The translations under genes and the position numbers were made by a program. The notes beneath the pieces are model-generated. The model was not told the DNA's origin. It saw only the letters and a list, made by a program, of their open reading frames with translations, and ran no database searches. From the NCBI RefSeq assembly GCF_001592045.1, contig NZ_BCWB01000052.1, positions 1-38,606 of the forward strand: 38,606 bases of DNA. The letters are read 5' to 3'. Positions 3,195 to 28,103 of this stretch are shown here, one piece after another. Position 1 is the first letter of the stretch; every line of letters starts with the position of its first letter. The DNA comes from Thermobifida fusca NBRC 14071 = JCM 3263. Lineage in GTDB: Bacteria > Actinomycetota > Actinomycetes > Streptosporangiales > Streptosporangiaceae.

Positions 3195-5492
3195 CTAGGT
3201 TCTGGCACCAGAAACGCGTTTCATCGATGAGGCCACATCGTCGACGGAGTAGCCGAACTGGTTAAGGCGTGTGCGAGCGGTCTCCACCTCCTTCTCGGTG
3301 AACAGCGAGGCAAACCGGGGCTCGCACACCACTGCTTCCACGGTCAGGTCGAGACGGCCGCGCTCCCACAGCGCTGAAAACCCGTCGGAGACCGTGGGCG
3401 CGTGCAGCAGGCGGCGTACCGTCTCCAACGGCCCCAGGTCCGCGATCATGCTCAACAGCTGGGAGGGGATGTATCCGGCCTCGTCGCGAGCCCGGTCGTA
3501 GAGCGAACGCAGCGCTACCCCCAACTCCCGCAGCAGCGGTTCATTTTCCTCCCTGGGCTGTTCTGCAACGGCTTTCTGTTCCACCAGCTGTTCCCCGGCC
3601 GCCTCTGCGTTCCGCCGTTTGACGTAGCCGAGCAGGGTATCCACCGAAGTGAACACTTCGTAGCCCAGTTCCTTCAACCGGGGAAGGTCAGCTTCCGCAG
3701 AATCCGACACCAACAGCACGGGGGAGCCTTGCCCGGCCTGCAGTCCATACGGCCAGAACGCTTCGGCGACCGCGAGTGTCCGCCCTGTCTGCGGATCAGG
3801 CACTTCGGTATCCCTGTCCGGGGCAGAGCAGCCTAGCCGCTGCAACTCGTTGATAAGATCGCGGACCTGCACGGCACGCGGATCGTCGGCATTTTCAACG
3901 ACCACACTGGCCGGGCGGAGCGGCAGTGCGTCCGTGCCGGCAGTTCCGTCCCGTAGTTCGGTGAGGAAACGCTGCGCTTCGCGTGCCAAGAGTTCGCGGC
4001 GCGCGGCAAAAAAGTCGCGCCACCGCTCTGCCCGCCACAGTTGCGGATCGGAAGGAATCCACTGCGAGGCGAGCACGCCCGGATGGGCGGCCTCCATCTC
4101 AGCTAGATAGTCCTCCGGTGGACGGTTACCGATCGCGCGGGCGCTCTCCTCCGACAGGAAGCAGAGGTTCGCATTCTCGGTAGCTTTACCACGGCCGCGC
4201 AGCAGCATGGTGGGAAAGATCTTGTGTTGTTGCAGGGAAAGCCCGCTATCGAGGTACTCCAAGCGCAGCGGTCTCCCGGTACGCAAATCACGGGCGTCGC
4301 CGACTCGAGTCAACAGGTACAGCAGCGGGTAGAAGCGGGATGCCGAGCTGCCTTCAAAGTCGTGCGGGCGCACTTCAAGCGACCCACCACGCCACCGCTC
4401 CAGCACGGTAATCAACCCTTCAACCCCACTGCGCTCGAGAACCTCAAAATCGCGCTGCATGATGGCTTCCATCGTGGCACTGTAACGTGCCCACAACGCG
4501 GAGTTGAGATACCAGTACAGGACTTTGTCACGATGGGCGCTGCTGTCAAAGGAGCCTCCGTTGAGGTCCAACAGGCGGACCACCACGATGACAGAGGACT
4601 TACTCTTCAACACCCTGTCGTGGTCCAAGCCCAGGCGCCCCGACAGTTCCTCTAAAAACGTGTCGGTGTGTGCGATCGTGCGTTCCAAGGCATCACGGAA
4701 CTGAGCAGCATCCACCCGGTTGAGAGCTTCAAAGGTGGTGCGGCCGGTTGCCACGGCTGTCGTAGCACGCAGCAGCCAATCGAAGGTAAAGCGAAATCCC
4801 TGCTCCCGCCACCGGTTAATGACCTCGCGCATCGTTCGACGCGCAACAGGCCACTGGGCACACACCTTAGCCAGCGCCAAATCGCCCTTGGACAGTTTGG
4901 TGCCGCCCGAGTTGACCCGGTTGAAAATGTCGACCACCTCGTCGACATCCTTATCCGCGCCGGTGATCTTCTCGTCGTAGAATTCACGTTCCGTGATCTG
5001 GTGCAGGCGGTTTAACCGATCCAGGTATTTGTTGAGCAGTTTAGGGGTATCGCTGAACTGCGCCACGTGGAAAGCCGGCCCCTGTTGGAACAGTTCGGTC
5101 ACGTTCACCCAGCGTGGATCCGAGGCCATTTTGGCCCGTGTGTAGAACTCGAAGACCTCGGTTTCCACGTTGAAGTACAGCCCGGTGAACGCCTTCGGGT
5201 CACCGTCAAAAAACGCGGGAGGACGCCCCCGGATCACGCCGTACAGGGAGGTGATGCGCTGCTGTCCGTCCAGCAGCATCAGGCGGATGCCCCCTCCTGT
5301 TGTGCCACCCCGGGTGGCCACATCGGTTGCCGCGGTCTCCCACAGCAGCAGGCTGCCCACCGGGTATCCCCGGTACAGGGACCGCATCAGCCCGCGCACC
5401 TGTTCACGGTTCCACACGTAACCGCGCTGGAATTCGGGAAGCACAATCGTTCCCGAATCAATCTGATCAAGCAATGTAGACAATTTGGCCAT
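3195..5492 (-). CDS. GmrSD-like type IV restriction protein (DUF262 + HNH/DUF1524-like), single chain
   Basis: This 765-residue protein opens with a DUF262 (ParB-like NTPase) domain: LPEFQRGYVW near 18-27, DGQQRITSL at 75-83 and FNRVNSGGTKLSKGDL near 190-205. A GmrD/DUF1524-like HNH region follows: QQHKIFP (421-427, His423), NANLCFL (440-446) and NRPPEDYL (456-463). The canonical HHIFP reads HKIFP here. Residues about 520-630 (FWPYGLQAGQGSPVLLVSD) and the tail about 650-760 are accessory modules I cannot name. GmrSD enzymes are NTP-dependent nucleases against modified (for example glucosylated 5hmC) phage DNA. The gene starts 31 bp after the helicase gene, so the two are probably co-transcribed, and it ends the minus-strand run that begins at drmA. 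Confidence 0.82.
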   Translation of the reverse strand: MAKLSTLLDQIDSGTIVLPEFQRGYVWNREQVRGLMRSLYRGYPVGSLLLWETAATDVATRGGTTGGGIRLMLLDGQQRITSLYGVIRGRPPAFFDGDPKAFTGLYFNVETEVFEFYTRAKMASDPRWVNVTELFQQGPAFHVAQFSDTPKLLNKYLDRLNRLHQITEREFYDEKITGADKDVDEVVDIFNRVNSGGTKLSKGDLALAKVCAQWPVARRTMREVINRWREQGFRFTFDWLLRATTAVATGRTTFEALNRVDAAQFRDALERTIAHTDTFLEELSGRLGLDHDRVLKSKSSVIVVVRLLDLNGGSFDSSAHRDKVLYWYLNSALWARYSATMEAIMQRDFEVLERSGVEGLITVLERWRGGSLEVRPHDFEGSSASRFYPLLYLLTRVGDARDLRTGRPLRLEYLDSGLSLQQHKIFPTMLLRGRGKATENANLCFLSEESARAIGNRPPEDYLAEMEAAHPGVLASQWIPSDPQLWRAERWRDFFAARRELLAREAQRFLTELRDGTAGTDALPLRPASVVVENADDPRAVQVRDLINELQRLGCSAPDRDTEVPDPQTGRTLAVAEAFWPYGLQAGQGSPVLLVSDSAEADLPRLKELGYEVFTSVDTLLGYVKRRNAEAAGEQLVEQKAVAEQPREENEPLLRELGVALRSLYDRARDEAGYIPSQLLSMIADLGPLETVRRLLHAPTVSDGFSALWERGRLDLTVEAVVCEPRFASLFTEKEVETARTRLNQFGYSVDDVASSMKRVSGART

Positions 5493-5523
5493 AAGGAACC
5501 TTTCTCACTGTTGTGGGGAAACC

Positions 5524-7614
5524 TCAAGAAAGCGCGGTAAGAAACGGGCTCGGCTCACGACTCCAGGTGACCAGGAGGCGCTCGCGGGCCCGCGTGCACG
5601 CCACAAACAGCAGGCAGCGTTCCTGTTGCAGTCCAACGCGGTGTGCGGCTTTGTCCTCGGATTCCGGGACAACCGCTTTGGGGGCAGGCAACTGTCCTTC
5701 ACTAACCCCGGCCACCACCATGCAGCGGAATTCCAGCCCTTTCATTCGGTGCATAGTGCCCACGGATACCGCACCGTCTTCAGGAAGTCCTCCGGAGAGT
5801 TCACGCACCGGGATCGACTCTGCGTTCAGCTTCTCGGCAACCTCTTTCACCAGCCGGTTGGAGCGCACGGCCACCCCGATCTCTTCGGGAGCCACCCCGC
5901 TGTCCATCCACTCCCGGACTGCAGCGGCGACAGCGCACAGCTCGTCTTCCCAACTGGTAAAGCCCTGAACGCTGGGTGGGTGTCCGTGGAGTTCGGATCG
6001 GCAGCCCGCGATCGACTCGACACCCCCGTCCATGTCGTCGATCCGCTCCCCACGCAGCAAGCCCAGGCTCCAGGCGAGGATTTCTGCGGTGGTGCGGTAG
6101 TTGATCCGCAGCCGAGTGGAGCGTCCCGCAATGTTGATGCCGACGTCGCGCAAAGTGACCCGGTGCTGGTAGATGCGCTGGTGGGTGTCGGCAGCGAAGA
6201 ACAAATCATTCGGGCCTTCGGGCACAGCGGCACGCAGTAGCCGCCATTTTTCCGGGCTGAGGTCTTGCGCCTCGTCCACCACGATGTGCCGATACGGTTT
6301 GTGGTCGCGTTCCGCGAGCAGCCGCGCCGCCTCCACGCACACGGTTTCGTACGTCCACAAGCCCTGCTCGCGCAGCGCGGATTCGAACTCCCAGATCGCC
6401 TGCCAGACGTGGGCACGCTGCTGGGAGCCGAGGGGCCGTCCCCGGCCAGTGCGTTTCGCGGCGAGATAGTCCTGTGCCGAACGCACTTGCTGGGCGATGA
6501 CGACCTGCCGCCACTCTTCAGCGAGAAACGCGGGCGTGAACGAAAGCCCCAGGTTGCGGATGATCGTGGACCACAGTTCGTGTTCTTGCTCCCCGGCCAG
6601 CATCCTCAGGGCGCCGTGCTCTTCGCGGACGACACGGTGGGCGAGCTGGTCGACGTGGGCGACGTCGATCCGGTCAACGAACTCGTCGTAGTCGTCCAAC
6701 AGCATCAAGCCTGCCCGCAGCGACTCGGCGAGTGTCGACGTGAACGTGGTGACAAGGACTTTTCCCTCCCCGTTACGGGCCAGGTGGCGGGCACGGTGCA
6801 GGGCGACCACAGTTTTCCCTGTGCCGGGCCCACCGGTAATCCGCGCCGGTCCCCGGTAGTGGGCCTCAACCACACTGCGCTGCACCGGGTGCAGGTAGAC
6901 CCGCCACAGCGCGAAGGGGTAAGCGAGCACTGCCAACAGCTCGTCAGGGCCGTCAACGAACACCACACGGTCGCGGCTGCGTTCGACTGCCGCGTCCAAG
7001 TCGTCGGGGTCAATCTGCTCGCCTGTGATATCGACGCAAAGCTCTTCCCACACCTCTTCGGGAGTGCAGCCTGCGGCGAGCGCGACCAAGACTTTCCACT
7101 GCACGGAAGGCAGGAAGCTTTCGGCGGCTTCCAGCTGGGATTCCTCGGTGAGGGCGCGGGCGAACGCCAGCGTCTGCCCGTCTATACCGAGGCGACGCAG
7201 GTCGTGATCGCTGACGTGGTCGAATAGCCGTTGTGGGGCATCTCGAGCGGTCTGTTCCAGGTGGGGCAGGGAGGCGTCGATCGCTTCCACGTCACGGATT
7301 TCGATGCGGCCGGTGGCCCCGTTGACGGTGGCAGTGCGGCGCTTCGCCCACGCGTAGGCGTCGTCATGCGGCAGGACTTTGAGCAGGGTGTAGGTGTCAC
7401 CTGACTCAGGGGCGAGGACGACGCCCCGCCAGAACTGGTCGATACGGATGGTGCGGAACCGGTCGTCACGGGCATTGGTGATTTTTTCGAGGTGGATTCC
7501 CGTGTGGCGGGCGTGCTCAAATTTCGTAAAGACTTCAGTGACCCGGTCTCGGACACTTTTCTCTAATTGTGCAAAGTCGAGGAGAAAGTCACGGTCAATC
7601 GCCAGAATCGCCAT
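5524..7614 (-). CDS. UvrD/PcrA-like SF1 helicase with RelE-like N-terminal domain
   Basis: The protein has 696 residues. Residues 1-90 look like a RelE/ParE-type fold (DRDFLLDFAQLEKSV, LEKITNARDDRFRTIRID), a known N-terminal cap of a class of UvrD-like helicases. The motor has Walker A GGPGTGKT (261-268), motif II DEAQD (447-451), DTHQRIYQHR (motif III), RINYRTT (motif IV) and C-terminal MHRMKGLEF and VACTRARERLLV (motifs V and VI), so the ATPase looks intact. ATG 7614 has AAGGAAA upstream. It lies 57 bp after the kinase gene and 31 bp before the GmrSD-like gene. The expected role is 3'-5' DNA unwinding for the neighbouring nuclease (inference). Confidence 0.88.
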   Translation of the reverse strand: MAILAIDRDFLLDFAQLEKSVRDRVTEVFTKFEHARHTGIHLEKITNARDDRFRTIRIDQFWRGVVLAPESGDTYTLLKVLPHDDAYAWAKRRTATVNGATGRIEIRDVEAIDASLPHLEQTARDAPQRLFDHVSDHDLRRLGIDGQTLAFARALTEESQLEAAESFLPSVQWKVLVALAAGCTPEEVWEELCVDITGEQIDPDDLDAAVERSRDRVVFVDGPDELLAVLAYPFALWRVYLHPVQRSVVEAHYRGPARITGGPGTGKTVVALHRARHLARNGEGKVLVTTFTSTLAESLRAGLMLLDDYDEFVDRIDVAHVDQLAHRVVREEHGALRMLAGEQEHELWSTIIRNLGLSFTPAFLAEEWRQVVIAQQVRSAQDYLAAKRTGRGRPLGSQQRAHVWQAIWEFESALREQGLWTYETVCVEAARLLAERDHKPYRHIVVDEAQDLSPEKWRLLRAAVPEGPNDLFFAADTHQRIYQHRVTLRDVGINIAGRSTRLRINYRTTAEILAWSLGLLRGERIDDMDGGVESIAGCRSELHGHPPSVQGFTSWEDELCAVAAAVREWMDSGVAPEEIGVAVRSNRLVKEVAEKLNAESIPVRELSGGLPEDGAVSVGTMHRMKGLEFRCMVVAGVSEGQLPAPKAVVPESEDKAAHRVGLQQERCLLFVACTRARERLLVTWSREPSPFLTALS

Positions 7615-7671
7615 TGAACTGTTTCCTTCCGTCCCACCCGTTATTCGACCGTATCGCGGTATTCGTACTTC

Positions 7672-9300
7672 TCAGGAAGACCGGTGCTGTTGTCCGAGGT
7701 TTTGTGTGGCCTGTTCTAGTAAGGCGCGGACTTTCACGGTCCGCGAGTGGAAGGGGCCGTATACCTGGGTGAGGTCGTTCAATAGGGAACGCAGCGTGTG
7801 GATGGCTTCCTCGTACTGTTGGGATTGCAGCTGCACGGTTCCTATGTCGCGACGCAGGTCGAGGATCCACGGATGGTGGAGACCACGAGTGTGTTGCCCG
7901 TCAGTGAGCAGCCGGTGCATCAACTCCAGTGCTTCCGTGGTGTCGCCGACGAGGGTGCGGCAGGTTGCCTCCCGTCTCCGGTAGTGGAACACCAGGTCTG
8001 CGTACGGGCCGTCCCGTTGGGCCAGGTCTGCGGCGAGCACAGCGAATTCGGATGCTGCTTCGTGGTAGTCGCCTTCGTTGAAAAGCATGTCGGCGAGGAA
8101 GCCGCGCAGGTCGATCACGTCGGAGTCAAGTGCGCCGAAGGCTTTCTCCGCGGTGCGGAGCGCGGATCTCACCACGTCGACGGCTTCACTCGTGCGGGAT
8201 TCCGCGAGGAGACGCTCCGCTTCCGCACGGTGTTCTTTTAGCACAACGCGGTCCACGCGAGTGTTTCCGGGCGCCGGCTGCGGGTCGGCAGGCGCAGGCC
8301 CCGACACGGCCTGGCGGGCAGCTTCTCCCGGGAAAGGTGTTCCGCCACGGCTCTCTGCAGGCGCAGCCGCAGCACCATCTACCCGGCTCACCACCGCCGC
8401 ATACATCCGGGTCGGCGCGCTACGGCCCGGTGGGTCCATCGCCCCGGTCAGCGGTACGAGACCGGTCGCGAACGGCAGGAGCCGCTCATAGACTTCCTGG
8501 GCGCTTCTCGGCCGGTCCTCAGGGTTCTTGGCGAGCAGGTGTAGTACCAGGTCGGCGAGCGGATCCGGTACTTCCGGCCGGTAGATGTGGAGTGGCGGCG
8601 GAGGTGCAGAAACCTGTTTGTTCATCGTGTCGTAGGACGTGGCCCCGGTGAACGGCAGCTGCCCGGCCAGCATCTGGTAGAGGGTGCAGCCGAGGGCGTA
8701 CAGGTCGCTGCGGGGACTGCTGATTCCGGACGCGATCTGCTCAGGAGCCATGTAGGCTGGGGTGCCGATCAGCTGCCCGGTACGGGTGATCTGGGAAAAG
8801 TCACTGAGGTCGAGAGCGACAGCTAACCCGAAGTCGAGGACTTTGACCGTGCCTTCCGGCTCCAGCATCACGTTGGAGGGTTTGAGGTCGCGGTGCACGA
8901 GAGAAGCGTGGTGGGCGGCGGTGAGCACTGCGCACACTTGCGCGGCAATCGCCGCAGCCCAGCCGATAGGCAGCGCGCCTTCTTCAGCGATCAGGTCGGA
9001 CACGGTGACACCGTGGATGCGTTGCATAACCAGGTAGGGCCGTCCCTCATGGGTGCCCTGGTCGAAGACGGCGGGCACCCCCGGGTGTTGTAGGCGGGCG
9101 GTGACGCGTGATTCGCGGAGGAACCGGCGCACCAGCTCCTCGTCGTGGACGCCGTCGGGGAATTTGAGGAATTTGACGGCCACCTCGCGTTTGAGGCGGG
9201 TGTCGTGTCCCTCCCACACTTCACCCATGCCGCCCGATGTCAGGGGACGCAGCTCGTAGCGGTCGTCCAGCACCATCACGGTTGGCAAGTCACCGCGCAT
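7672..9300 (-). CDS. Ser/Thr protein kinase with C-terminal TPR-like region
   Basis: The 542-residue protein has an N-terminal Hanks kinase domain (about 10-285): TSGGMGEVWEG glycine loop (21-31), Lys43 in VAVKF, HRDLKPSN (136-143), DFG (156-158) and APE (185-187). All catalytic residues are present. A proline/alanine-rich linker follows. The last 180 residues are helical repeats typical of TPRs (EAERLLAESRTSEAVDVVRS, YEEAIHTLRSLLNDLTQVYG). No membrane segment is visible, so it should be cytosolic. ATG 9300 is chosen over an upstream ORF start at 9324 because GAAGGAGA lies 6-7 nt ahead of it. It lies 177 bp after drmC, with room for its own promoter. It could sense infection or set the activity of the helicase/nuclease pair (inference). 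Confidence 0.87.
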   Translation of the reverse strand: MRGDLPTVMVLDDRYELRPLTSGGMGEVWEGHDTRLKREVAVKFLKFPDGVHDEELVRRFLRESRVTARLQHPGVPAVFDQGTHEGRPYLVMQRIHGVTVSDLIAEEGALPIGWAAAIAAQVCAVLTAAHHASLVHRDLKPSNVMLEPEGTVKVLDFGLAVALDLSDFSQITRTGQLIGTPAYMAPEQIASGISSPRSDLYALGCTLYQMLAGQLPFTGATSYDTMNKQVSAPPPPLHIYRPEVPDPLADLVLHLLAKNPEDRPRSAQEVYERLLPFATGLVPLTGAMDPPGRSAPTRMYAAVVSRVDGAAAAPAESRGGTPFPGEAARQAVSGPAPADPQPAPGNTRVDRVVLKEHRAEAERLLAESRTSEAVDVVRSALRTAEKAFGALDSDVIDLRGFLADMLFNEGDYHEAASEFAVLAADLAQRDGPYADLVFHYRRREATCRTLVGDTTEALELMHRLLTDGQHTRGLHHPWILDLRRDIGTVQLQSQQYEEAIHTLRSLLNDLTQVYGPFHSRTVKVRALLEQATQNLGQQHRSS

Positions 9301-9477
9301 TGAAATCTCCTTCACACCGGGCAACCACCGCAGCCTCGAACCTTGAAAGATCCGGTGAGGGGTGAGAAAGGACGGGAAGCAGCGGGGTTGGTCGACGGGA
9401 ACAGGCAGCGGACACCGGGGTGCGGGGAGACCGGCCGCAGTGCGCCCTCTCTCGGTGGGCGGTTCTTGTTTTCTCAG

Positions 9478-10239
9478 TCACGCGCGGCGACCTCCCCCAA
9501 GCGGTCGGAGCACACCGGAGGCTTGGAGCTGGTCGATGTGTTCGGCGACCCGCTGCGGCGCGGTGCCGCCCCGCACGAGCAGGCCCGCTTCAAGGTTGGT
9601 GCTCACCCCCGACTGGGTGAGGTTGGCACTGGACACCAGGAGTGTCCGGCGGTCGCCGACGGCGAGCTTGGCGTGCATTTTTCCGCGGCTCCCATGGCGT
9701 TGTTCGATCGGCCAATGCCACAGCCGCACCCCGTTGATCCCCGCGAACGCGGCGGCAGGCTCCACTTCCAAAGCGCCGTCCGCCCCGTGCAGGGTTTCCA
9801 CCACCACGGTGACCGCCACTCCGCGAGCCGCGGCCGCAGCCAGGGCGGCGCGCACCTCGTGGTGCGGCCGGGCCGAGTAGGTCATCAACCGCAGGTCCCG
9901 TTCAGCTTCGGCGATCACGTCGAGCAGGACTTGCGCGGTGGCGCGCACTGGCACCGCGTTGCTGGCGGGGCCGCTCCACACGGTTTCCACGCTGACCGTG
10001 GCGCGGCCCCGCCGCAGTCCTTCTGCCAGGCCTTTAAGGTAGGCGGCGGCTTCGTGGCGGGTGCCGCCGCTGTTGAGTGCGGCGAGCACGGCCGCGGCGG
10101 GCCCGTCGAACCGCCACCCGCGTTCGCTCAAGATCGCGTGGGCTGGCCATCCCGCCGCGATCCGAGTGGCGAGCACGTCCAACGCGTCAGCGCCGAGCTC
10201 GGTCGCGGCGGCAGCAGCAGCCTCGTGGAATTGGGTCAC
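9478..10239 (-). CDS. drmC: DISARM protein DrmC, phospholipase D-like
   Basis: This 253-residue PLD-superfamily protein carries one clear HKD motif, MHAKLAVGDRRTLLVSSANLT near the C-terminal third (HxK-x4-D followed by S/N). PLD-family DrmC is the third core DISARM subunit. Its exact role is unsettled, and it is the most dispensable core component in studied systems. It starts with GTG 10239, which overlaps the drmB stop in GTGA (10236-10239), so the two are translationally coupled. It is the last recognised drm gene; 177 bp separate it from the kinase. Confidence 0.9.
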   Translation of the reverse strand: MTQFHEAAAAAATELGADALDVLATRIAAGWPAHAILSERGWRFDGPAAAVLAALNSGGTRHEAAAYLKGLAEGLRRGRATVSVETVWSGPASNAVPVRATAQVLLDVIAEAERDLRLMTYSARPHHEVRAALAAAAARGVAVTVVVETLHGADGALEVEPAAAFAGINGVRLWHWPIEQRHGSRGKMHAKLAVGDRRTLLVSSANLTQSGVSTNLEAGLLVRGGTAPQRVAEHIDQLQASGVLRPLGGGRRA

Positions 10240-12134
10240 GGCAGTTCTTTGAAGAGTGCCAGCGCGGGGTCGTCGATGGGCACCACGAATCGGCGGTCTA
10301 GGAACCGGTTACCGCGTTCGCACGTGGTTTCCGACACGAACAGGCACACGTGGCAGGCCGCGCCATGCAGAAAGTCGGCGGCGTGCGGCTGCGGGAGTCG
10401 TTCTTTGCACAGCGGGTCGGAGGAGCAGCGGGTAGCGTCGCGCAGTGCTTTGCGTACCAGCAACACCAGCCGGTCGGGTTCGGCTTGGGATACGAGCCCG
10501 CCGAGGGTGCCTTCCGAGTCGGGTGCCGCCGTGGAGATGAGGATGCCACCGCGTGGGTCGTCTTCAGTTCCGGCGTAGATGCGTTCCGACAGGCTCGCCG
10601 AGCTATACCCGCAGTCCAGCGCGATCGTACGGATCAGCAGGTGGGACAGGGTGTGCAGAGCGATGTATCGAGCTCCCGGCCAGTTCCGCATCTCGTCGAA
10701 CGGTCCTTTGATCCGGTCGGAGTAGCGATTGCGCCGGTATTGGGCGTAGGCCGCGCGGTGGAGGCGCATCGCCTCAGAGTCACGGACCCGCTGTTCCCAT
10801 TCGGCGAGCAGGTCGTCGGGCACGCGCAGGAAGATGCCTTCGCCGCGTACTTCGCTGGCAGGCACCCACGTGGTTTCTTCCCGGCTCAATGGGGCCCGGG
10901 TCACCAGCCCTGGGTCTTCCGGGTCGGGGGCGTCCAGCCGGGTGAAGCCGACGAGGGCCCGCACCTGGCGTAGCCGTTCCACCTGGGCCACGTCGCAGAA
11001 GATCTCTTTGAGCGGGGTGGGCACTCCTGCCGGGTCGCGGCGCAGCGCAAAGTCGAGTTCCGGGTCGGGGGCGGGAATAGAGGACAGGGTTTCCCATTCG
11101 GGGGTGAGCAGGTCCACGTGGTCGTCCTCCTCGTCTTGTTCCCCGTCCTGGGTTTTACGGGCCCGCACGCGTTCCACCGCGGCAGCGAGTTCGTTGTCGT
11201 CCCACTTGTCGAACACCCGAAACGCGGGAACGTTGTCCCGAGCATAGGGGTACATGGCCGGGGCCAGGGGTTCGATCTGCTTCCAGTGCTGTTCGACAAG
11301 GTCGTCGAGGTCGCTGCGGGGGCTTCGGGGAAGCGACAGCACGGACAGGGTGTGTGCGAACCACTGGTTGGAGGAGCCCACCACGAGCACGCGGGCCCGC
11401 TGGTCGCAGCCGTTCTCTTCGAATACGTCCAAGTGCGGGTGGCGGCCTCGGCAGTTCGGCAGGGTGGTGCCGTCGTCGCCTAGCGCGTCACGGATGTTGC
11501 GCTGGGTTTCACAGCTCAAACATTTGAGGTTGACGTTGACGCCAATGTTGCCGCCCCGGTCTTCCATCTGCATCCGCGGGTGAGTGCTTCCTGTCGGGCA
11601 CGGCTGTCCGCGGTGGACGAACTCCCGGTAGGGGAAGTCGTCGAGGTGGCCTGCGGTGCAGGCGAGCATGAACCGGGTGGGCACCGCAAGCGGTTTGCGG
11701 CTTTTCTTCTTGCCGCAGCGCTCGTGGTAGAAGCGGGCGTCGTGCGGGCGGTTCGACTGGTCGTTTTCGAACAGGAAGGTTTTGCTTGCCAGGGGGGCGA
11801 GTTCGTTGCAGGCGGTGCAGCGCAGCCACGTGGGGAAGGGAATCGTGGGCACCCCTACCCGGTCTGCCAGGCTGTTGCTGGCCCCGTCGTCGTCAACCCA
11901 CGGCGCGGGACGCAGCTCTTTGACGTGACGGTTGTTGAGGATTTTCTGGACGGCGGCGAGCAGGCGGGGTTCGTCGATGGGCTGGTGGTTGGGGACGTTG
12001 TCGTACCGCCACCGGTCCAAGCCGCTGACCAGCACCGAGAAGTTGGGCAGGTCAACGAGGGCGCCCACGCCCGTGGTGAACATCAGGTGGCTGGGCCGGA
12101 CTGTGCCGACTTTGCGACGGTACTGGTCGTTCAC
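10236..12134 (-). CDS. drmB: DISARM protein DrmB (DUF1998)
   Basis: The 632-residue protein has the DUF1998 layout. The N-terminus TVRPSHLMFTTGVGALVDLP is typical of DrmB. Zinc-ligand cysteine pairs follow (RCTACNEL; ERCGKKK; FMLACTAGHLDDFPY; LKCLSCET). The C-terminal DUF1998 core has ALDCGYSSASLSERIY and a cysteine cluster (RCSSDPLCKE, GAACHVCLFVSETTCERGN). DrmB forms a complex with the DrmA helicase and is required for DISARM. The GTG start at 12134 overlaps the drmA stop by 4 bp (GTGA), and its own stop overlaps drmC, so the three core genes form a tightly coupled unit. Confidence 0.94.
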   Translation of the reverse strand: MNDQYRRKVGTVRPSHLMFTTGVGALVDLPNFSVLVSGLDRWRYDNVPNHQPIDEPRLLAAVQKILNNRHVKELRPAPWVDDDGASNSLADRVGVPTIPFPTWLRCTACNELAPLASKTFLFENDQSNRPHDARFYHERCGKKKSRKPLAVPTRFMLACTAGHLDDFPYREFVHRGQPCPTGSTHPRMQMEDRGGNIGVNVNLKCLSCETQRNIRDALGDDGTTLPNCRGRHPHLDVFEENGCDQRARVLVVGSSNQWFAHTLSVLSLPRSPRSDLDDLVEQHWKQIEPLAPAMYPYARDNVPAFRVFDKWDDNELAAAVERVRARKTQDGEQDEEDDHVDLLTPEWETLSSIPAPDPELDFALRRDPAGVPTPLKEIFCDVAQVERLRQVRALVGFTRLDAPDPEDPGLVTRAPLSREETTWVPASEVRGEGIFLRVPDDLLAEWEQRVRDSEAMRLHRAAYAQYRRNRYSDRIKGPFDEMRNWPGARYIALHTLSHLLIRTIALDCGYSSASLSERIYAGTEDDPRGGILISTAAPDSEGTLGGLVSQAEPDRLVLLVRKALRDATRCSSDPLCKERLPQPHAADFLHGAACHVCLFVSETTCERGNRFLDRRFVVPIDDPALALFKELP

Positions 12135-18439: not shown

Positions 18440-18525
18440 GTAGGCCTCCACAGGGAGTTGCGCCGGCTGGGGATCCGGCGCGCATCTTGGGTACACGCCT
18501 ATGCTGACTCATCACAAATGAATTT

Positions 18526-18649: not shown

Positions 18650-18665
18650 CCAGCAGAGGAGTGAC

Positions 18666-19490: not shown

Positions 19491-19495
19491 GGACT

Positions 19496-19693
19496 ATGCC
19501 CATGATGCGCTTCCAGCTCCAATTCCGTAAGTCCTCGTACTCTGGAGCCCGCCACGAGAACTGTGTCGAAGTCGCCGACCTCCCCGGCGCCGCCGCTGTC
19601 CGAGACTCACAGCACCCAGAAGCGGGACACCTCATCTTCCCCGCCGCTGAGTGGCAAGCTTTTCTCAACGCGGTGAAACACGGCCTTATTTGA
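19496..19693 (+). CDS. DUF397 domain protein, partner of the XRE regulator
   Basis: The 65-residue protein is the length of a single DUF397 domain. The motif is complete: FRKSSYSGARHENCVEVADL (about 10-29), then AAVRDSQHPEAG, then HLIFPAAEWQAFL. It starts 5 bp after the XRE stop, with AAGGA overlapping that end. DUF397 proteins occur almost only in actinomycetes next to XRE-DUF5753 genes. The pair is probably co-transcribed and the small protein likely modulates its partner (inference). Confidence 0.92.
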   Translation: MPMMRFQLQFRKSSYSGARHENCVEVADLPGAAAVRDSQHPEAGHLIFPAAEWQAFLNAVKHGLI

Positions 19694-19732
19694 CCATGTC
19701 TCTAACCGTGGAGGTCTCGCCCACGCTCACGG

Positions 19733-19766
19733 GGGCCTTCTTCCACCGCTGCTTCTGAGAAGGCCC
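19733..19766 (+). terminator. Candidate terminator after the XRE-DUF397 pair
   Basis: GGGCCTTCT (19733-19741) pairs with AGAAGGCCC (19758-19766), a 9-bp stem with a 16-nt loop, 40 bp after the DUF397 stop. There is no T tract, so it is only a candidate. Confidence 0.45.
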
Positions 19767-20875: not shown

Positions 20876-23800
20876 TCAATCGAAGAGAGTGTCGGATGAG
20901 ACACACTTGCTTTTCTTGTCGTGCAAGCCCTGAGCAACCTCTTCGGCATAGCGCTCATGGTTCAACTCGAGCAAGCTGTCCAAGATTTCGCGTTGAGCTG
21001 CTGGACCGATGGTATAGCGAAGCTCTTTCCTGCCAACTTTGTGGAATCCGTGGTCGAGTCCCCCCACTGCCTTGAGACGATCCTCCCATCCGTAAGCGCG
21101 GATAACAGCCTCGTCGATAGCCTTGTGAATGCGACGCAGTTCTTCGATGTCGTCATCGGTGCAGTCGGGATCGAAAACCAGGTTGTAAGTCTTAGTAAGT
21201 CCAGCCTGGCGAGAGAGCATCACACCACGGCGGAAAATGTCCAGACGGGAGCCGAGCTCGCGTAGTTCCTCAGTGAGTTCAGGGAGGGGGAAAGTCTCAA
21301 AAACGTCGGAAGGGGTATAGCGGGGATCAGCCCGCATCGATGAACCACGAGCCTTAACCCACCAGTAGTGCGGCGCGCTTGACAGCAAAGCCAACATGGC
21401 AGTGTCATTAGTGGCGAAGATGCCCAACATATGAGAAAACACTTGCCCTGTCGGCACCATGGCTGGCATTACGGTCTTACTCACAAGAGCAATTACGACA
21501 ACTTTATCAAGATTCTCGTTTTTTATCTTCCTAAGAAGAGCCGGGCGCCTTTCTGCATACCTCCACCAATAATCTCTATGTGATTTCCTATTTTTCTTGA
21601 TCCGCTCAGGTTTCACCGATTCTTTGACTTTATTATAACATTCTATATATTTCCTTGCCTCAAATTCAGGCCAGTCATGAAAGTTAATAACCCAACGACT
21701 CGCCGAGCAGTCCGGATTTTCATTCAGGTCCCGCCCATTAAGATAGGGAAACAGTACGTCTTTGTTTCGTGGATCTTTCTGAATAAGTTCTCTTGCACGC
21801 TCTGGGGCCATCGTAAACCCCGTGCCCAAAATAATGCTTCCCTGGAAAGAAACGTTTTTGTTTTCAACCAAGCGTTTCGGGACTCCACTCACCCTGGAAG
21901 CAGGATCAAGCGAAGACGTGATGCCTGAAACTTCCCGGCCATCCAAAATTCTCTTAACTTTATCCGAGAGACGAGATCTACTTCCCCAGATCGCGCAGTA
22001 ATCTAGGGAGGCACTCTTTGACGGCCACGGTTCACTCTTAATAGCTCGTCGTATAGTCACACCATCGGCGACGATTTGATCCAGCCCAACTTCTCGGGTG
22101 TCTCCCTGCGCCAGCGTGTTGGTAGCCAACAGGCCAGTCTGGCCTTTGCCACTGATGACATCATGGGCTCGTAGTGTGAAATAGGCAACGAGGTCCGCGC
22201 TTCCCCGAGTACCGCGGCCTATGCCCTGGACCAGATATTCACGGTAAGCGGTTCCCAAGGAGCCGGTGATTTTTTGCCCGCCCAAGAAAGGTGGGTTTCC
22301 GATCACTGCATCGAACCCGCCTTTCTCAAACACCTCCGGGAACACCAGCGGCCAGTGCACGGGCTTCCTCTTGAAAGCTCCCTCAGGCCAGTCTGTCTCC
22401 AACCACTCTCGGATCTTGCTACGGGCCTCAGCTTCGGCGGTGTCGAGACGGCGAGCAAGATCGGCGGCGGCACGGGATCCTTCTCGCAGACCGCTGTCTT
22501 TCTCTTTGGCGTTGGCTAGCGTCGCCCCCACACACAAATCTGCGAGGAGTTTCACCCGACCGGTCCGCAGCTCCGCATCTGCCAGCAGGGACCGCTTGCG
22601 GTGCAGCGCTTCTACCGATCTCCCCTCAATAGCGGCAAGAGCCCGCCGTTCTTTCGCGACGTCTGCGATGAGCTCCCGAATACCTGCGGTGAAGTCCACG
22701 AGAGCCCGCTCTTTGTGAATCCTCCGGCCCTTCTTCGGGTCCATGTGCATGTACTCGACCTGCTCCAGGGACGTGATCCCAAGCAGGGAGTCGCCCGCCA
22801 CCAACCGGTCGTCAAGAAAAGTGAACGGCCGATGCGGGTCCATGGACACCAGCCACAGCGACAGCTTCGCCATCTCCACGGCCATCGGGTTGATGTCCAC
22901 CCCGTACAGGCAGTGCTCAATGACCTGCCGCCGCGCTTCGATAACCACCGGATCCTCGTCGGCCCCCAGCCCGCCGTCCAAGGGCACATAGTTGCGGACC
23001 CGTTCGTCGCCCTCGGCAATCCACGCCTCGATGAGCCGATCACCCAGATACCGGGCTGCTGCCACGAGGAACGCTGCCGACCCCATGGCAATGTCCGCGA
23101 CCTTCAACTCCAAGATCTTGGCGCTCGACTTGAGCTTCCACTCGTCACGGTTCGCGGTCTGCAACGGTCCCGGCTCGTACACCAAGGGCTCCAGCGCGCC
23201 CTCGACGATTTGTTCCGCGAGGGAACGCGGCGTGTAGTGCGTGCCCGTGTTCTGCCGCAGCGGTGACTCGGTGACATACAGCTCTCCTGGCAGCACCACC
23301 ATGGGCAGGCCACGCAGGTCGGTGCGGAGAATCCCGTAGAACGGCAGCAGCCGTTCCGTCAACGGATAATCGCCTTCCGTCACTGCGAGCAGCTTCTTGC
23401 GGGCCTCTTCCTTGTCCTCGCCCGACAGCGGTGCCAGCCTCTTAGCCACGGCCCGCGGCGAACCGATCCCAGACTTCTTGTACGTGTCCGACACCGCCTT
23501 CGCCAGCCCTTCCACATCGGAATGCCGGGCAGCCAAGGCCTCCAGGTCGGCGAGCCGCACCTCCTCTTCCTCGCCTTCCTTACCAATCAGGCCCACCACG
23601 ACGTCGTCGGCGCGGAACCCATCGAACGCCAGCAGGCCCTCGTACACGTAGCCGATCTGCTCCACGTCCAAAGTGCGGAACGACAGCTTGCGTCGCTCCC
23701 GCGACTTGCCTTTACCAATCTCGACGTACTGGACCGCGCGGAGCATGTGCAGCACCGTGCGGTCGTCGATGTGCAGCGGCAGCCACGCGAACCGGTCCGG

Positions 23801-24934
23801 GTCGAACAGCGACCCGTCGTGCGCGGTCATGCGCAGCCTCGGATGGTCCACCCCACGGTAGGCGGCGTTAAACACGGCGAGCAGCCGGTGCCAGGCCGTG
23901 TACGTGTTCTCCAGCTCCTCTTCGAGGCCTTCCTTCACCCGCTGCTCTAGTTCGGCACAGAGGCGTCCCACCGAATACGCCGTGGCATACAGCTCGTTGT
24001 CGGACGGGAGCAGCTTCCGCTCCTCGGCGAACAGCAGAAACACGATGCGCATCATCACGGTCACCGCGCCCTCGTACACCTCGTGCGCGGAAACGTGCGA
24101 CAGGTCGGGTTCGCCGCGTTGGCGGGCCCACGTGTCGGCGCGACCGATCGCCGCAACCAGCAGCTCCACGGCCCGGCGAACCTGAACTCCGAGGGCATCG
24201 GTGATCTCCTCCTGGGAGTCCAAGCTCTTGCGCAGCAGCGGCACCAGCTGCTCCTCGTCGGGCACGCTGAAGAAACGGCGGCGGCCCAGCAGTGAATAGA
24301 ACGCGCGCACCACAACCCGCTCGGCGGCCTCCGGCCAGGCGACCGCGTCAAACACGGCCGTCGTGGTCACCCCGCCGCGCGGTGCCCACACCAGCACCCA
24401 CCAGCGTCCGTCCGTAGCCAAACCCAGTTCCACACCGTGGTGGCGACACAACTGCGCGAGCCGGTCCACGGGGGTCGCCGACCACTGCTCCCCCTTGATC
24501 CGGGCCATGGGAGACGTGTTCGGCGGGCACACCACGCCGAGAAGCCGCACTGTGTCCGGTTTCGTGTCCTCACCCGGCTCCACCAGGGCGAACGACGGGG
24601 TGACCGTGGTGTCGTGCTCCGGTACGTCCATGGCGAGAGCAGCCACTTCGTCCGCGTCCGTGCGGTACTGCTCCCCCCACTCGAGCAGGCCGCTGAGCAC
24701 GAAGTCGATCCAGCCGCGCTGACCCGTCTCCGGGTCAGCCTGCCAGTCGGCGTGGGCCCGGCGCAGCCTAGCCACCTGCTCCTTATCCAGTGCTTCCAAG
24801 TCCGGCCACGCTTCGCGAAGGACGGGAAGCGACAGGAACGGGCCGCTCACCTCGATCAACGACAACCAGTCCCGGTGCTGCTGGGCACGATCCGGGGCGG
24901 AACGGCGGGGCCGGCGGGAACGAGGGGAACTCAT
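20876..24934 (-). CDS. drmMI: DISARM class 1 adenine methyltransferase DrmMI
   Basis: This 1352-residue Eco57I-like N6-adenine methylase has GTHYTPRSLAEQIV before the catalytic core. The SAM motif I is DIAMGSAAFL (Asp614; the family usually has DxAxGSGxFL, so one glycine is alanine). Catalytic motif IV NPPF is at 880-883. A C-terminal target-recognition region and a helical tail follow. In DISARM it marks host DNA as self. ATG 24934 overlaps the drmD stop (ATGA, 24931-24934). The part encoding about residues 950-1170 (21430-22080) is clearly lower in GC, with AT-ending codons and A/T runs, unlike the rest of the gene. This suggests a transferred recognition module. The next drm gene, drmA, lies 4.9 kb downstream. 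Confidence 0.94.
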   Translation of the reverse strand: MSSPRSRRPRRSAPDRAQQHRDWLSLIEVSGPFLSLPVLREAWPDLEALDKEQVARLRRAHADWQADPETGQRGWIDFVLSGLLEWGEQYRTDADEVAALAMDVPEHDTTVTPSFALVEPGEDTKPDTVRLLGVVCPPNTSPMARIKGEQWSATPVDRLAQLCRHHGVELGLATDGRWWVLVWAPRGGVTTTAVFDAVAWPEAAERVVVRAFYSLLGRRRFFSVPDEEQLVPLLRKSLDSQEEITDALGVQVRRAVELLVAAIGRADTWARQRGEPDLSHVSAHEVYEGAVTVMMRIVFLLFAEERKLLPSDNELYATAYSVGRLCAELEQRVKEGLEEELENTYTAWHRLLAVFNAAYRGVDHPRLRMTAHDGSLFDPDRFAWLPLHIDDRTVLHMLRAVQYVEIGKGKSRERRKLSFRTLDVEQIGYVYEGLLAFDGFRADDVVVGLIGKEGEEEEVRLADLEALAARHSDVEGLAKAVSDTYKKSGIGSPRAVAKRLAPLSGEDKEEARKKLLAVTEGDYPLTERLLPFYGILRTDLRGLPMVVLPGELYVTESPLRQNTGTHYTPRSLAEQIVEGALEPLVYEPGPLQTANRDEWKLKSSAKILELKVADIAMGSAAFLVAAARYLGDRLIEAWIAEGDERVRNYVPLDGGLGADEDPVVIEARRQVIEHCLYGVDINPMAVEMAKLSLWLVSMDPHRPFTFLDDRLVAGDSLLGITSLEQVEYMHMDPKKGRRIHKERALVDFTAGIRELIADVAKERRALAAIEGRSVEALHRKRSLLADAELRTGRVKLLADLCVGATLANAKEKDSGLREGSRAAADLARRLDTAEAEARSKIREWLETDWPEGAFKRKPVHWPLVFPEVFEKGGFDAVIGNPPFLGGQKITGSLGTAYREYLVQGIGRGTRGSADLVAYFTLRAHDVISGKGQTGLLATNTLAQGDTREVGLDQIVADGVTIRRAIKSEPWPSKSASLDYCAIWGSRSRLSDKVKRILDGREVSGITSSLDPASRVSGVPKRLVENKNVSFQGSIILGTGFTMAPERARELIQKDPRNKDVLFPYLNGRDLNENPDCSASRWVINFHDWPEFEARKYIECYNKVKESVKPERIKKNRKSHRDYWWRYAERRPALLRKIKNENLDKVVVIALVSKTVMPAMVPTGQVFSHMLGIFATNDTAMLALLSSAPHYWWVKARGSSMRADPRYTPSDVFETFPLPELTEELRELGSRLDIFRRGVMLSRQAGLTKTYNLVFDPDCTDDDIEELRRIHKAIDEAVIRAYGWEDRLKAVGGLDHGFHKVGRKELRYTIGPAAQREILDSLLELNHERYAEEVAQGLHDKKSKCVSSDTLFD

Positions 24935-27900
24935 CGGACAGCCTCCCGGCTCGGAATCACGAACACCACGGCGACAGGGAACAAGTGCGATTCTCGGCTG
25001 CTGTAGCGGGCGTCAATCGCGGCTAGTTCCCGCTCCCGCTCGGCAGCGAGACTGTCGAGGCGGCGCTGCCAGTTGCGGCGGTCGCGTCGGTACTGCTCCA
25101 GCTCCTCTTTGGACTTTTCAACATCGGCCCGGCTGAACAGGGCATCCTCATCGTCTTCGGCGAGCGCAGCGCGCAGGGTTGCAGAAAACTGGTCGAGGGC
25201 AGAGACCACGCGGGCGCGCTCCTCGGCGGCACGCTGTTCCAACTGGCGGTTCAAAGACTCTTCGCGGGTTTTCTTCCGCCAGGTGACCGCCGACATGAGA
25301 CCGTCGGAGATCTTCGGCCACCGCTGGGCGACCCGTCTCCACACCACATCCGAGGCGGGGCGGCCCGTGGTGAGCGCGCAGTCCAGGAAACCGCCGAGCA
25401 CGCCCAGGTTCTCCAAGCGGCGGAACCGGCCGTGTTCCGGCGCCCACCCGCCCGCATACAGCACTTCTTCGTGCAGGCGGATCCCGTCGGCACCCACCAC
25501 CACGAACCGTGAGAACGCGCCGACCAGCACATCCTCGAGGTCCGGGGCGTCGCTGACCACGGCTGTTACCCGGCGCAGCCCCACCCGGTCGTTGGACACA
25601 GCCGCACGCAACAGCCGAGTGGACATCGCCACTAGCGGATGGTTGAGGTGTGCGAGCACCACGTCGTCGCGGCCCCGCGCTACCTCCGGGTCGAACGTCA
25701 CCGGAAGCTGGCGGGGCTCGCCCTTGTCCGAAGGCAGCTTCTCGATCAGCCCTTCGGTGGCGCGCACCCACGAGCCCGTGAGCGTGGGCACGTCGTACAG
25801 GCCTTCGGCGCACTCCTTCTCATCCACGTGGGGGGTGAGGTGCTGCTGGTTAGCGAGCGCTAGCGCGGTATCCACCACCCGCTTAATCCGGTCCGGGGTC
25901 AATCCCAGCTCATTGACGGTGGTATTCACCTTCTCGCGGAGCCTGCGCACCTGGTCACGGACATTGGAATCGGACGGCAGTCGCTCCTTGCGGGCCCCCG
26001 CATTCTCCACGTCCACGTCCGTGTCTTGGCCGAGCATGCGTCGTTGTACCGCGTCCGCGAGCACCGCATTGACCTGGCCCAGGTCCTCCTCCATGCGGGC
26101 CACTTTCGTCGCCACCCGGGACAAGAATTCCAGGTCGGCTTCATAGGAGTCGACAGTGCCCTGCCAGCCTGCCCCCACGAAATGCCACACCTCGGGGGTT
26201 TTGGTCTGACCGTAGCGGTCGATCCGGCCGATGCGCTGCTCCAGCTTGTTTGGGTTGAACGGGATGTCGTAGTTGACCAGCCGGTGGCAGTGGCGTTGCA
26301 GGTCGATCCCCTCACCGGCGGCGTCGGTGGCGATCAGGATGCGCACCGGGTGCTCGGACGGGTGCTTCTGGAACGCCAACCGCACCTGTTCGCGTTCGCT
26401 CGGGCTCATGCTGCCGTGCAGCACGGCCACCCGGTCGCCGCTCATCCCCTCCTGGCCGAGCAGGCCCACCAGCCAGTTGAGAGTGTCGCGGTACTCGGTG
26501 AACACCACGACCCGTTCGTTCGTCCAATGCCGGTCGGGTCGGCACACCGACTTCAGATAGTTGATCAGTTCGCGGGCTTTCGCGTCCGCGGCGGCCTCGT
26601 GGCTGATCGCCCACTGCAGCATCCGCTCCAGTAAAGCGGTCTCGTCGTCGTCCGGATCCGGCTGCATGGGGCGGGCCCGGTCCAGCGCGTCGTCCTCGGC
26701 CTCCGCCAACTGTTCGTCGTCATAGGTGGCGACGTCGTCGAAGAAACCCTCCATCCACTCGGGGACTTCGTCCCCCACCATGGCAGAGCCGGAGCGGTTC
26801 TTGAGTGTGTCCAAGTAGACGGAGACCGTGTGCGCGAACGCTGCCGGACTGGAAAACAGCCGCTTCTTCAGCAGCAGGGTGACCAGGTCGGTTGCTTTGC
26901 GTCCCCGGCGGGACGTGATCTTGGCGCGGCGCAGTTCCGCGAACCGAGTGAGCAGGCCGTGGATCTCGCGCTCGCTCTCCGGGTAGACCACCGGGATCGC
27001 TTTCGCCTCCCGGTGCAGGAAACGCGGGTTGCCGTCCGTGTCGACAATGTCGGCCTTCAAGCGGCGCACCACTGTTTCGCGCACCGCTGTCTTATCGGGT
27101 GCCACGCCGCGGGCGAACCGCTGGTTGTCGAGGATCTCCAAAAGCGCGGTGAACGAGGCCTGGTAGCCGTTGTGCGGGGTCGCCGACAAAAACAAGCGGT
27201 GCGTGAAATGCGGGGCGAGGCGGCGGATCAGTTTGGTCTGCTGCGAGTCGACCGCATACACCTGTTTGGGGGCAGCTGGGGCCACGTGGTGGGCCTCGTC
27301 CAAGATCAGCAGGTCGAAAGTGCGTGGATAGCTGGGACCGTCGTGGGGGAGCACCTCGTTAAGGAGCCGCTGGGCTTTTGCGCCGCGCAACCACGGCAGG
27401 CTGACGATCGTCAACGGGTACACATTGAACGGGTTGGCGGCGCTTCCGAAGTCGCGGCGCACTCGGGCGCAGCGTTCCGAGTCGACGATGGTGAAGTCCA
27501 GGCCAAACTTCTCGAACATTTCGTCCCGCCACTTCACGGTGAGGCCCGCGGGGCAGACGATCATGATGCGTTTTGCACGGTGCCGCAACAGCAGCTCCTG
27601 GGCGACCAGGCCCGCCTCAATGGTCTTGCCGAGGCCCACGTCGTCGGCGAGCAGCAGGTTCACGCGGGGTGCGGACACGGCACGCGCCACCGGTTCCAGC
27701 TGGTAGTCCTCGATCGTCACTCCGGAGCGGAATGGAGCCTGAAGCAGCCGCACGTCAGCCGAGGTCACCGCGGACCAGCGCACCGCATCAAGGAACGCGG
27801 CGAGCCGTTCCGGGGGGTCGAAACCGGCAGTGGCGGACACCTCTGGCAGGGATCCGGTTGGAAGAACCCGGCGTCCTGGTTCGAGTTCCCAGATCACCTC

Positions 27901-28050
27901 CAAGGTCTCGCCGAACCGGCCATCTTCAACGCTTTGTAGGGAGACCAAAGTGGCCTGTCCTGCTGGTTCGACCTGGCTGACCACCCACTTCTGCCCACGA
28001 ACCGCTACTAGGGCCTGAGGGGTAGGCATGGCCTCGGTTGTGCTCGCCAT
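24931..28050 (-). CDS. drmD: DISARM class 1 SNF2-family helicase DrmD
   Basis: The protein has 1039 residues from ATG 28050. It has AGGAA about 6-10 nt upstream; the alternative ATG 28029 is 7 codons in, and the ORF extension to 28152 runs through the promoter. SNF2 motifs are complete: Walker A DDVGLGKT (Lys142), DEAH (251-254), LFLSATPHNG, and in the second RecA half ILIATDAAGEGIDLQ and EQRIGRIDRYGQ. The C-terminal third is rich in charged coiled-coil segments (SREESLNRQLEQRAAEERAR). DrmD defines class 1 DISARM together with DrmMI. It is the first gene of the minus-strand defence run and is coupled to drmMI by a 4-bp overlap. Confidence 0.94.
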   Translation of the reverse strand: MASTTEAMPTPQALVAVRGQKWVVSQVEPAGQATLVSLQSVEDGRFGETLEVIWELEPGRRVLPTGSLPEVSATAGFDPPERLAAFLDAVRWSAVTSADVRLLQAPFRSGVTIEDYQLEPVARAVSAPRVNLLLADDVGLGKTIEAGLVAQELLLRHRAKRIMIVCPAGLTVKWRDEMFEKFGLDFTIVDSERCARVRRDFGSAANPFNVYPLTIVSLPWLRGAKAQRLLNEVLPHDGPSYPRTFDLLILDEAHHVAPAAPKQVYAVDSQQTKLIRRLAPHFTHRLFLSATPHNGYQASFTALLEILDNQRFARGVAPDKTAVRETVVRRLKADIVDTDGNPRFLHREAKAIPVVYPESEREIHGLLTRFAELRRAKITSRRGRKATDLVTLLLKKRLFSSPAAFAHTVSVYLDTLKNRSGSAMVGDEVPEWMEGFFDDVATYDDEQLAEAEDDALDRARPMQPDPDDDETALLERMLQWAISHEAAADAKARELINYLKSVCRPDRHWTNERVVVFTEYRDTLNWLVGLLGQEGMSGDRVAVLHGSMSPSEREQVRLAFQKHPSEHPVRILIATDAAGEGIDLQRHCHRLVNYDIPFNPNKLEQRIGRIDRYGQTKTPEVWHFVGAGWQGTVDSYEADLEFLSRVATKVARMEEDLGQVNAVLADAVQRRMLGQDTDVDVENAGARKERLPSDSNVRDQVRRLREKVNTTVNELGLTPDRIKRVVDTALALANQQHLTPHVDEKECAEGLYDVPTLTGSWVRATEGLIEKLPSDKGEPRQLPVTFDPEVARGRDDVVLAHLNHPLVAMSTRLLRAAVSNDRVGLRRVTAVVSDAPDLEDVLVGAFSRFVVVGADGIRLHEEVLYAGGWAPEHGRFRRLENLGVLGGFLDCALTTGRPASDVVWRRVAQRWPKISDGLMSAVTWRKKTREESLNRQLEQRAAEERARVVSALDQFSATLRAALAEDDEDALFSRADVEKSKEELEQYRRDRRNWQRRLDSLAAERERELAAIDARYSSRESHLFPVAVVFVIPSREAVR

Positions 28051-28103
28051 GGGGGTTCCTCTGGTCGGACGGACGGTCACAAGCGCGTTTCTAAGGTAAA
28101 GGC

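Follow-up and report, generated by a model that had tools for sequence, protein, structure and literature searches.

Class 1 DISARM, as defined in PADLOC (PMC9252829), is made up of DrmA, DrmB, DrmC, DrmD and DrmMI, of which DrmAB was reported to be activated by unmethylated DNA and DrmC to be dispensable (PMC9142583). ARMADA type II, according to a 2025 preprint (PMC12458937), ends with the gene for ArmD, a GajB-like UvrD helicase with an N-terminal RelE-like fusion; in the ARMADA of Escherichia coli, ArmD was reported to be essential and the K266A substitution to be inactivating. In BrxU, a type IV enzyme that shares an island with BREX, the substitutions D474A and H475A in the DHIYP motif were each reported to abolish DNA cleavage and phage resistance, with ATP hydrolysis being retained (PMC8565348). 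Here we describe a locus of Thermobifida fusca NBRC 14071 in which a class 1 DISARM core is followed by three further genes, encoding a Ser/Thr kinase, an ArmD-type helicase and a DUF262 protein. The window, that is, the whole stretch of DNA analysed, is 38,606 nucleotides long and constitutes an entire contig (G000:C52) of this 3.64-Mb genome.

We lean, if only slightly, towards the reading that the locus represents a kinase-equipped lineage of class 1 DISARM, in which the kinase would be a stable sixth member, and that it carries in addition an ArmD-DUF262 module shared with ARMADA, the DUF262 protein of which would act as a nucleoside triphosphate (NTP) switch. A bolder form, to which we give rather less than even credence, holds that the kinase gates this lineage and that the five-gene definition misses a sixth part, that ArmD-DUF262 is a plug-in for both DISARM and ARMADA, and that a relative of a nuclease has turned into a dead NTPase regulator several times.

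A kinase gene conserved in one DISARM lineage

The kinase gene (7672..9324, minus strand, with an ATG at 9300) encodes a TPR-tailed Ser/Thr kinase (Pkinase 8e-44) whose HRD and DFG motifs are intact. Residues 18–290 match the PADLOC profile of PD-T4-6 (E = 3e-94), and the TPR tail lies outside this match. An earlier note on this DNA, made from the letters alone, had placed the kinase, helicase and DUF262 genes after drmC on the same strand with gaps of 177, 57 and 31 bp, and the gap table confirmed this arrangement; the first gap shortens to 153 bp if the kinase starts at the upstream TTG. A scan of positions 9200–9600 for promoters and terminators, based on the sigma-70 consensus only, returned no sites. 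MADS is composed of a Mad1–8 set that includes a methylase (Mad2) and a kinase (Mad6). The window was not assigned to MADS: the kinase matches mad6 at the family level (1e-66), the helicase matches mad8 weakly (4.5e-6), and neither the list of open reading frames (ORFs) nor PADLOC shows a methylase adjoining the kinase.

The recurrence of this arrangement was followed in 297 genomes of the order, which were searched for DrmB, DUF262 and the C-terminal 201 residues of the kinase. At most three to four candidates per genome were scored in the DUF262 and DrmB searches, so further copies can be missed. Close-type drmB, defined by at least 57% identity, was found in 45 loci (44 full length and one split by contig ends), and 43 of them have a kinase match on their contig no more than 10 kb away. 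Inspection of the sequence showed that the two remaining loci are one with two drmC matches and no kinase (G114) and one in which the contig ends just past drmC (G125). Three genomes (G236, G100 and G252), in which drmB at this identity is present as short fragments only, were excluded from the 45; no kinase on the same contig was among the matches listed for them, and adding them brings the count to 43 of 48.

A set of 49 DISARM loci was read gene by gene. To the window and a locus of Prauserella alba it adds 23 loci reached via DUF262, 16 via drmB within the order and eight via drmB outside it; by design, this set is enriched for DUF262. drmC was found in 48 of these loci and the kinase in 45; a methyltransferase and the helicase each occur in 28, and DUF262 in 25. 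Wherever the kinase is present it lies on the drm strand; in the alignments, 36 of these loci have −13 to 269 bp in front of it and the other nine have 0.7–2.1 kb. All three genes follow drmC in 20 of the 49 loci. The link between extension and DISARM suggested by the earlier note was therefore upheld by this gene-neighbourhood check: the genes do stand next to DISARM elsewhere. Chance adjacency was likewise rejected, on the basis of the co-occurrence of drmB, DUF262 and the kinase in the 297 genomes.

Outside the order, a class-level sample of 394 genomes yielded eight close-type DISARM loci, of which six (all from one family) have the kinase, five have the helicase after the kinase (one of them broken) and none has DUF262. 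Divergent DISARM was represented by 12 fetched loci with drmB 43–47% identical, eight from other orders and four from this order, one of which is cut 2.8 kb past drmB; none of the 12 contains a kinase, helicase or DUF262 match above threshold. With the kinase in 43 of 45 close-type loci and in none of the 12 divergent ones, the kinase is a property of one DISARM lineage and not of DISARM in general.

An ArmD-type helicase shared with ARMADA

The second gene of the extension (5524..7614, minus strand) encodes a UvrD/GajB-like helicase of 696 residues (UvrD 1e-20) with intact Walker A and DEAQD motifs. The RelE-like cap that the earlier note had ascribed to this protein has no Pfam match at a threshold of 0.001, and was nevertheless borne out by structure prediction: the AlphaFold2 model of the N-terminal 240 residues adopts a RelE fold (predicted local distance difference test score, 84), and the first 19 Foldseek matches of this model in the PDB are toxins of the RelE/YoeB/YafQ type (best E = 3e-3 with a probability of 1.00, none below 0.001). 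An E. coli plasmid operon has at its ArmD position a helicase to which the window protein is 38% identical over its full length. Annotation calls the first product of that operon a DEAD/DEAH-box helicase; a type IIG/DrmMI-like methylase, a DruE-like helicase of 2113 residues and the ArmD-position helicase come next, an order that fits ARMADA type II. K266 and D454 of the E. coli helicase are the sites mutated in ArmD, and they correspond to K267 and D447 in the window. Judged by sequence and model, the window helicase is a full-length ArmD homologue with a predicted RelE-fold N-terminus. The YprA helicase of ARMADA type II is not found alongside it, the YprA-type gene of the window being DrmA according to PADLOC.

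The RelE fold raises the idea of an abortive arm, in which either this domain, as an RNase, or the kinase would be a toxic effector triggered when DISARM fails. Besides the modelled fold, membership of the kinase in PD-T4-6, a defence gene listed in PADLOC, speaks for such an arm; we consider it very improbable, however, as the ArmD-dependent E. coli ARMADA was reported to act without cell death, though with lysis at the highest multiplicities of infection (PMC12458937). Two further RelE-UvrD (ArmD-like) helicases are encoded elsewhere in the same genome (G000:C39, locus L039, approximately 2465–4219 and 7239–9359), with 40–44% identity in the main matches; no DISARM match was found in the 20 kb read around them.

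The helicase gene commonly travels with DUF262. Among the 297 genomes, a DUF262 gene lies within 30 kb of 28 of the 45 close-type drmB genes; conversely, such a drmB accompanies 28 of the 46 full-length DUF262 genes. Both are present in 28 genomes, against 45 with drmB and 44 with DUF262 (Fisher p = 1e-16, with no correction for kinship). These counts exclude partial DUF262 matches, such as those in G083, G279, G017, G043 and G067. A second, named set consists of the best 80 of at least 478 confirmed DUF262 relatives; the helicase N-terminus is matched in the locus of 44 of the 80, usually directly upstream. DISARM genes stand beside DUF262 in 16 of the 80 loci within a 10-kb flank, including those of Prauserella, Antrihabitans, Amycolatopsis and a Micromonosporaceae genome. 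Five other loci of this set, from Mycolicibacterium, Aldersonia and Mycobacterium (L115, L123, L127, L135 and L140), contain in order a DpdE/DrmD-like helicase, a DrmMI-like methylase, the helicase and DUF262. Each opens with the end of a gene, which in L115 matches the C-terminus of DruE and is truncated at the locus edge; PADLOC profiles were applied to L115 and, for L127, to the methylase only. These five loci look like ARMADA operons to which DUF262 has been added.

Two kinds of side observation concern the surroundings of the helicase gene. In L105 and L143, from Rhodococcus and Nocardia, helicase-DUF262 lies beside divergent drmD and drmMI (41–44% identical) on the opposite strand. A protein of about 2000 residues (cluster c14) is encoded between the kinase and helicase genes in L059 and L082, and upstream of the helicase in L047, the copy in L047 having only a trace AAA match in Pfam.

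A degenerate nuclease site in the DUF262 protein

The last gene of the extension (3195..5492, minus strand) encodes a DUF262 protein of 765 residues. The earlier note had described it as a single-chain DUF262/HNH protein; the first part of this description holds, the N-terminal NTPase domain matching GmrSD_N at 1e-29, and the second holds in part, the HNH motif being present in a degenerate form and no DUF1524/HNH domain being found in Pfam at 0.001. The motif reads HKIFP at residues 423–427, in place of the HH[I/V]FP of most relatives. Type IV enzymes of the GmrSD/BrxU kind carry DGQQR and an HNH motif of the form [D/H]H-[I/V]-[F/Y]-P, in which the two leading residues are both kept; in the window, DGQQR is present and the second of the two HNH residues is changed. 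BrxU (PDB 7P9K) is the only PDB match of the protein at E 0.01, with a profile E of 8e-26. The HNH motifs of the two proteins are out of register in the profile alignment, so the equivalence of the lysine with BrxU H475 rests on the motif pattern.

Comparison of the 46 full-length relatives in the order showed that the second histidine of [H/R]H[I/V]FP is kept in 38 and replaced in eight, namely HKIFP in the window and HN, HT, HM or QT in the seven others, whereas DGQQR is kept in all 46. In a tree from which L072 and L073 were left out as members of a different subfamily, the eight altered copies form one clade (99/99 support), with an intact copy from T. cellulosilytica as its sister. The HNH region is the most conserved region (mean identity 0.82) in 18 intact relatives, out of the 38, that belong to the same larger clade, and falls to 0.71 in the eight altered copies; the NTPase region shows no such drop (0.75 and 0.78, respectively). 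In the named set, part of which comes from the same genomes as the order set, 24 of the 80 motifs have another residue in place of the second histidine (HE, HY, HF, HN, HR, HT, HM, QE or QT), so that the histidine has probably been lost in several lineages. In a further C-terminal region of the window protein, conserved acidic residues are changed as well (WPDG to WPYG, and LELDP to LVSDS).

On this sequence evidence, the window protein is probably not a nuclease, and it is because the HNH histidine is gone that we read it as a putative NTP-driven switch and not as a type IV nuclease. DUF262 proteins lacking a DUF1524 nuclease domain have precedents in Menshen, Dazbog and PD-T4-2, as listed in a review (PMC10952713). 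The loss bears directly on the dual targeting proposed in the earlier note, in which DISARM would act against unmodified DNA and the DUF262 protein, as a GmrSD/BrxU-type nuclease, against modified DNA. The protein does belong to the domain family of BrxU, a genuine example of such an island exists in BREX-BrxU (PMC8565348), and dual targeting may hold for the 38 relatives that keep the histidine. For the window, where a lysine takes the place of the histidine essential in BrxU and the C-terminal acidic residues are altered too, the proposal did not survive, and we regard it as quite improbable.

The remainder of the protein gave few structural leads. Foldseek searches with its C-terminal half returned weak matches only, the best being Cas9 HNH domains (E = 0.088), and with the last ~230 residues no fold could be named; residues 520–630 may conceivably be Vsr-like. 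Residues ~645–755 are matched alone elsewhere in the order, for example in G154, G261 and G067, and on these matches are a mobile domain. In ten Nocardia loci (L149, L152–L158, L160 and L162), a DUF262 relative with HYLFP or HFLFP occurs in a conserved neighbourhood with no helicase; it is perhaps an offshoot with another role.

One system or independent neighbours?

A number of observations weigh against the extension being a fixed part of this DISARM, and they bear on the rival explanation that DISARM, a methyltransferase-kinase pair and helicase-DUF262 are independent systems travelling together as neighbours in a defence island. The kinase tail family is common, with matches in at least 122 of the 297 genomes. 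The kinase is missing from two of the eight close-type loci of other orders (in L199, which has no kinase, a partial and more distant helicase match lies on the far side of drmA), and no kinase follows drmC in three of the 16 DISARM loci of the named set, one of which reaches a contig end ~1.2 kb further on. The helicase occurs without DUF262 in eight of the 49 DISARM loci, at least one being cut by a contig end, and DUF262 without the helicase in five; the pair is also found without DISARM, beside ARMADA-like genes. In a kinase tree of 70 rows, from which matches shorter than 480 residues were left out, the DISARM-linked kinases are clustered and do not form one clade (12 label changes, compared with 20.8 in shuffles); an old link followed by repeated loss of DISARM may be an alternative account of this pattern. 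Two simple models were accordingly dropped: a single clade of DISARM-linked kinases is not supported by the tree, and a single inseparable kinase-helicase-DUF262 triplet was rejected, as the three genes also occur apart.

Deletions of the DISARM core point in the same direction. Two genomes, G087 and G088, have lost the part of the core between a point within drmD and a point within drmC, with differing breakpoints, and in G029 and G176 only the end of drmC is left. Methyltransferase-kinase is kept in all four and helicase-DUF262 in three, and because downstream genes survive in this way the extension genes may act alone. Such survival suggests either that the extension is of some use without DISARM or that the deletions are recent.

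The methyltransferase of these loci is an N6 DNA methyltransferase of ~640 residues (Pfam N6_Mtase 6e-24; PADLOC MTase_I and, more weakly, mad2), encoded between drmC and the kinase gene in 28 of the 49 DISARM loci. It is absent from the window, where drmC and the kinase gene are adjacent. Among 20 kinase loci that were fetched and lack a DISARM core, one of which (L223) has no kinase above threshold, the methyltransferase stands beside the kinase in nine and HmaA in five (one partial), which also counts against a kinase dedicated to DISARM. Given these neighbours away from the DISARM core, the methyltransferase-kinase pair has the look of a separate module, joining both DISARM and Hma. In five Hma-like loci (L073, L212, L213, L214 and L216) the kinase family directly precedes HmaA, and the N6 methyltransferase comes before it in L213 and L216. 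In five others (L221, L222, L225, L229 and L230) methyltransferase-kinase pairs have no DISARM or HmaA match in 20 kb, L222 containing an HEC-07 match; the pair is a possible stand-alone two-gene defence unit in these loci.

Each pair can thus be found alone or with other systems, as independent neighbours would be, and the block outlives the DISARM core. Set against this are the same strand and order in 45 of the 49 loci, 36 of these 45 having no more than 269 bp before the kinase, and the presence of the kinase in 43 of 45 loci of one DISARM lineage as against none of 12 divergent loci. We regard independent neighbours as possible, if rather unlikely, and retain the kinase-equipped lineage with its shared ArmD-DUF262 module as the favoured reading.

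Proposed mechanism

Taking gene content, order, strand, motifs and recurrence as observed, we infer the following course of events. DrmMI would mark self DNA, and DrmAB together with DrmD would load on unmarked invading DNA. The kinase may gate this machinery by phosphorylating a DISARM protein or a phage-response protein, by analogy with the Pgl system, which has a kinase. The RelE-UvrD helicase would provide a second motor that loads on DNA ends or single-stranded DNA, and the DUF262 protein, instead of cutting DNA like a type IV nuclease, would serve its neighbours as a sensor or switch driven by NTP.

The DISARM core and its interruption

Eight intact ORFs without internal stops run on the minus strand from 28152 down to 3195. 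The first, drmD (24931..28152), encodes an SNF2-family helicase of 1073 residues when read from the GTG at 28152; an ATG at 28050 is also a possible start. A PADLOC profile labelled DrmA (PDLC02572) scores slightly above the DrmD profile (PDLC02621, E = 0) for this product, with 1448 versus 1428 bits, and the gene is called drmD because the next PADLOC matches are DrmD and the Pfam domains are SNF2/Helicase_C. It overlaps by 4 bp with drmMI (20876..24934), which encodes a type IIG-like N6-adenine methyltransferase of 1352 residues with an NPPF motif (PADLOC DrmMI, E = 0). Further along are drmA (12131..15931; class 1 YprA-type helicase, 1266 residues, PADLOC DrmA 8e-295), drmB (10236..12134; MZB-domain protein, 632 residues, PADLOC DrmB 7e-70, Pfam MZB) and drmC (9478..10239; PLD-domain protein, 253 residues, PADLOC DrmC 2e-100, Pfam PLDc_2), all on the minus strand. 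The complete class 1 island announced by the earlier note is there in that PADLOC identifies all five drm genes, intact and on one strand within 18.7 kb. It is not one contiguous block: 4944 bp between drmMI and drmA (15932..20875; ORF list, Pfam and gap table) set drmD-drmMI apart from drmA-drmB-drmC. No DrmE, which PADLOC prohibits in type I, was among the matches listed for the eight island proteins (the best 25 for five of them). The DISARM core of the window is ordinary.

The interruption contains, on the plus strand, an XRE/DUF5753 gene (18564–19490) and a DUF397 gene (19496–19693), both recognised by Pfam. T. cellulosilytica has its DISARM split at the same place, with the halves ~11.4 kb apart as worked out from positions; its interruption shares about 700 bp of 73–75% similar DNA with that of the window, in inverted orientation. 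A third Thermobifida genome (G130) showed neither drmD nor drmMI in the 20 kb upstream of drmA. A WD40-repeat kinase is encoded at 34962–37235, near the other end of the window, and is apparently unrelated to the island.

What distinguishes this locus from known systems?

The main texts of the literature searched describe neither a DISARM lineage with a kinase among its stable members (Ofir 2018 lay outside the search, and an earlier mention there is possible) nor an ArmD-DUF262 module common to DISARM and ARMADA. The view of the earlier note that no described system has this exact gene set needs qualifying for the helicase, a type already described as ArmD. The self/non-self control and the effector of DISARM are open questions, and a kinase kept across one whole lineage would give a direct handle on its regulation. 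The shared ArmD-DUF262 module would give DISARM and ARMADA accessory parts in common, in addition to the helicase/methylase core that they share, and the probably recurrent loss of the nuclease-site histidine advises caution against naming DUF262 neighbours "type IV restriction" on the family name alone.

Compared with class 1 DISARM, the window has the same five core genes in the same order and strand, and adds the 4.9-kb insertion between drmMI and drmA, the stable kinase gene, and the ArmD and DUF262 genes. Hma loci have the same kinase family, directly before HmaA (an SNF2 helicase), and in L073 and L231 an HEC-05 DUF262 gene nearby; they contain HmaA/HmaC in place of the drm genes. ARMADA type II has in common with the window the RelE-UvrD helicase, here as a predicted full-length ArmD homologue, whereas the window has DrmA, DrmB and DrmC instead of the fused YprA helicase of the ARMADA type; the main text of PMC12458937 mentions neither a kinase nor DUF262. 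As in GmrSD/BrxU, a single-chain DUF262 protein with intact DGQQR lies beside a methylation-based defence, and the window protein differs in the change of the HNH histidine to lysine and in its long extra C-terminal regions. The idea of such a composite island has a precedent in the BREX-BrxU island (PMC8565348), from which the window is set apart by DISARM taking the place of BREX and by a nuclease motif that is not conserved.

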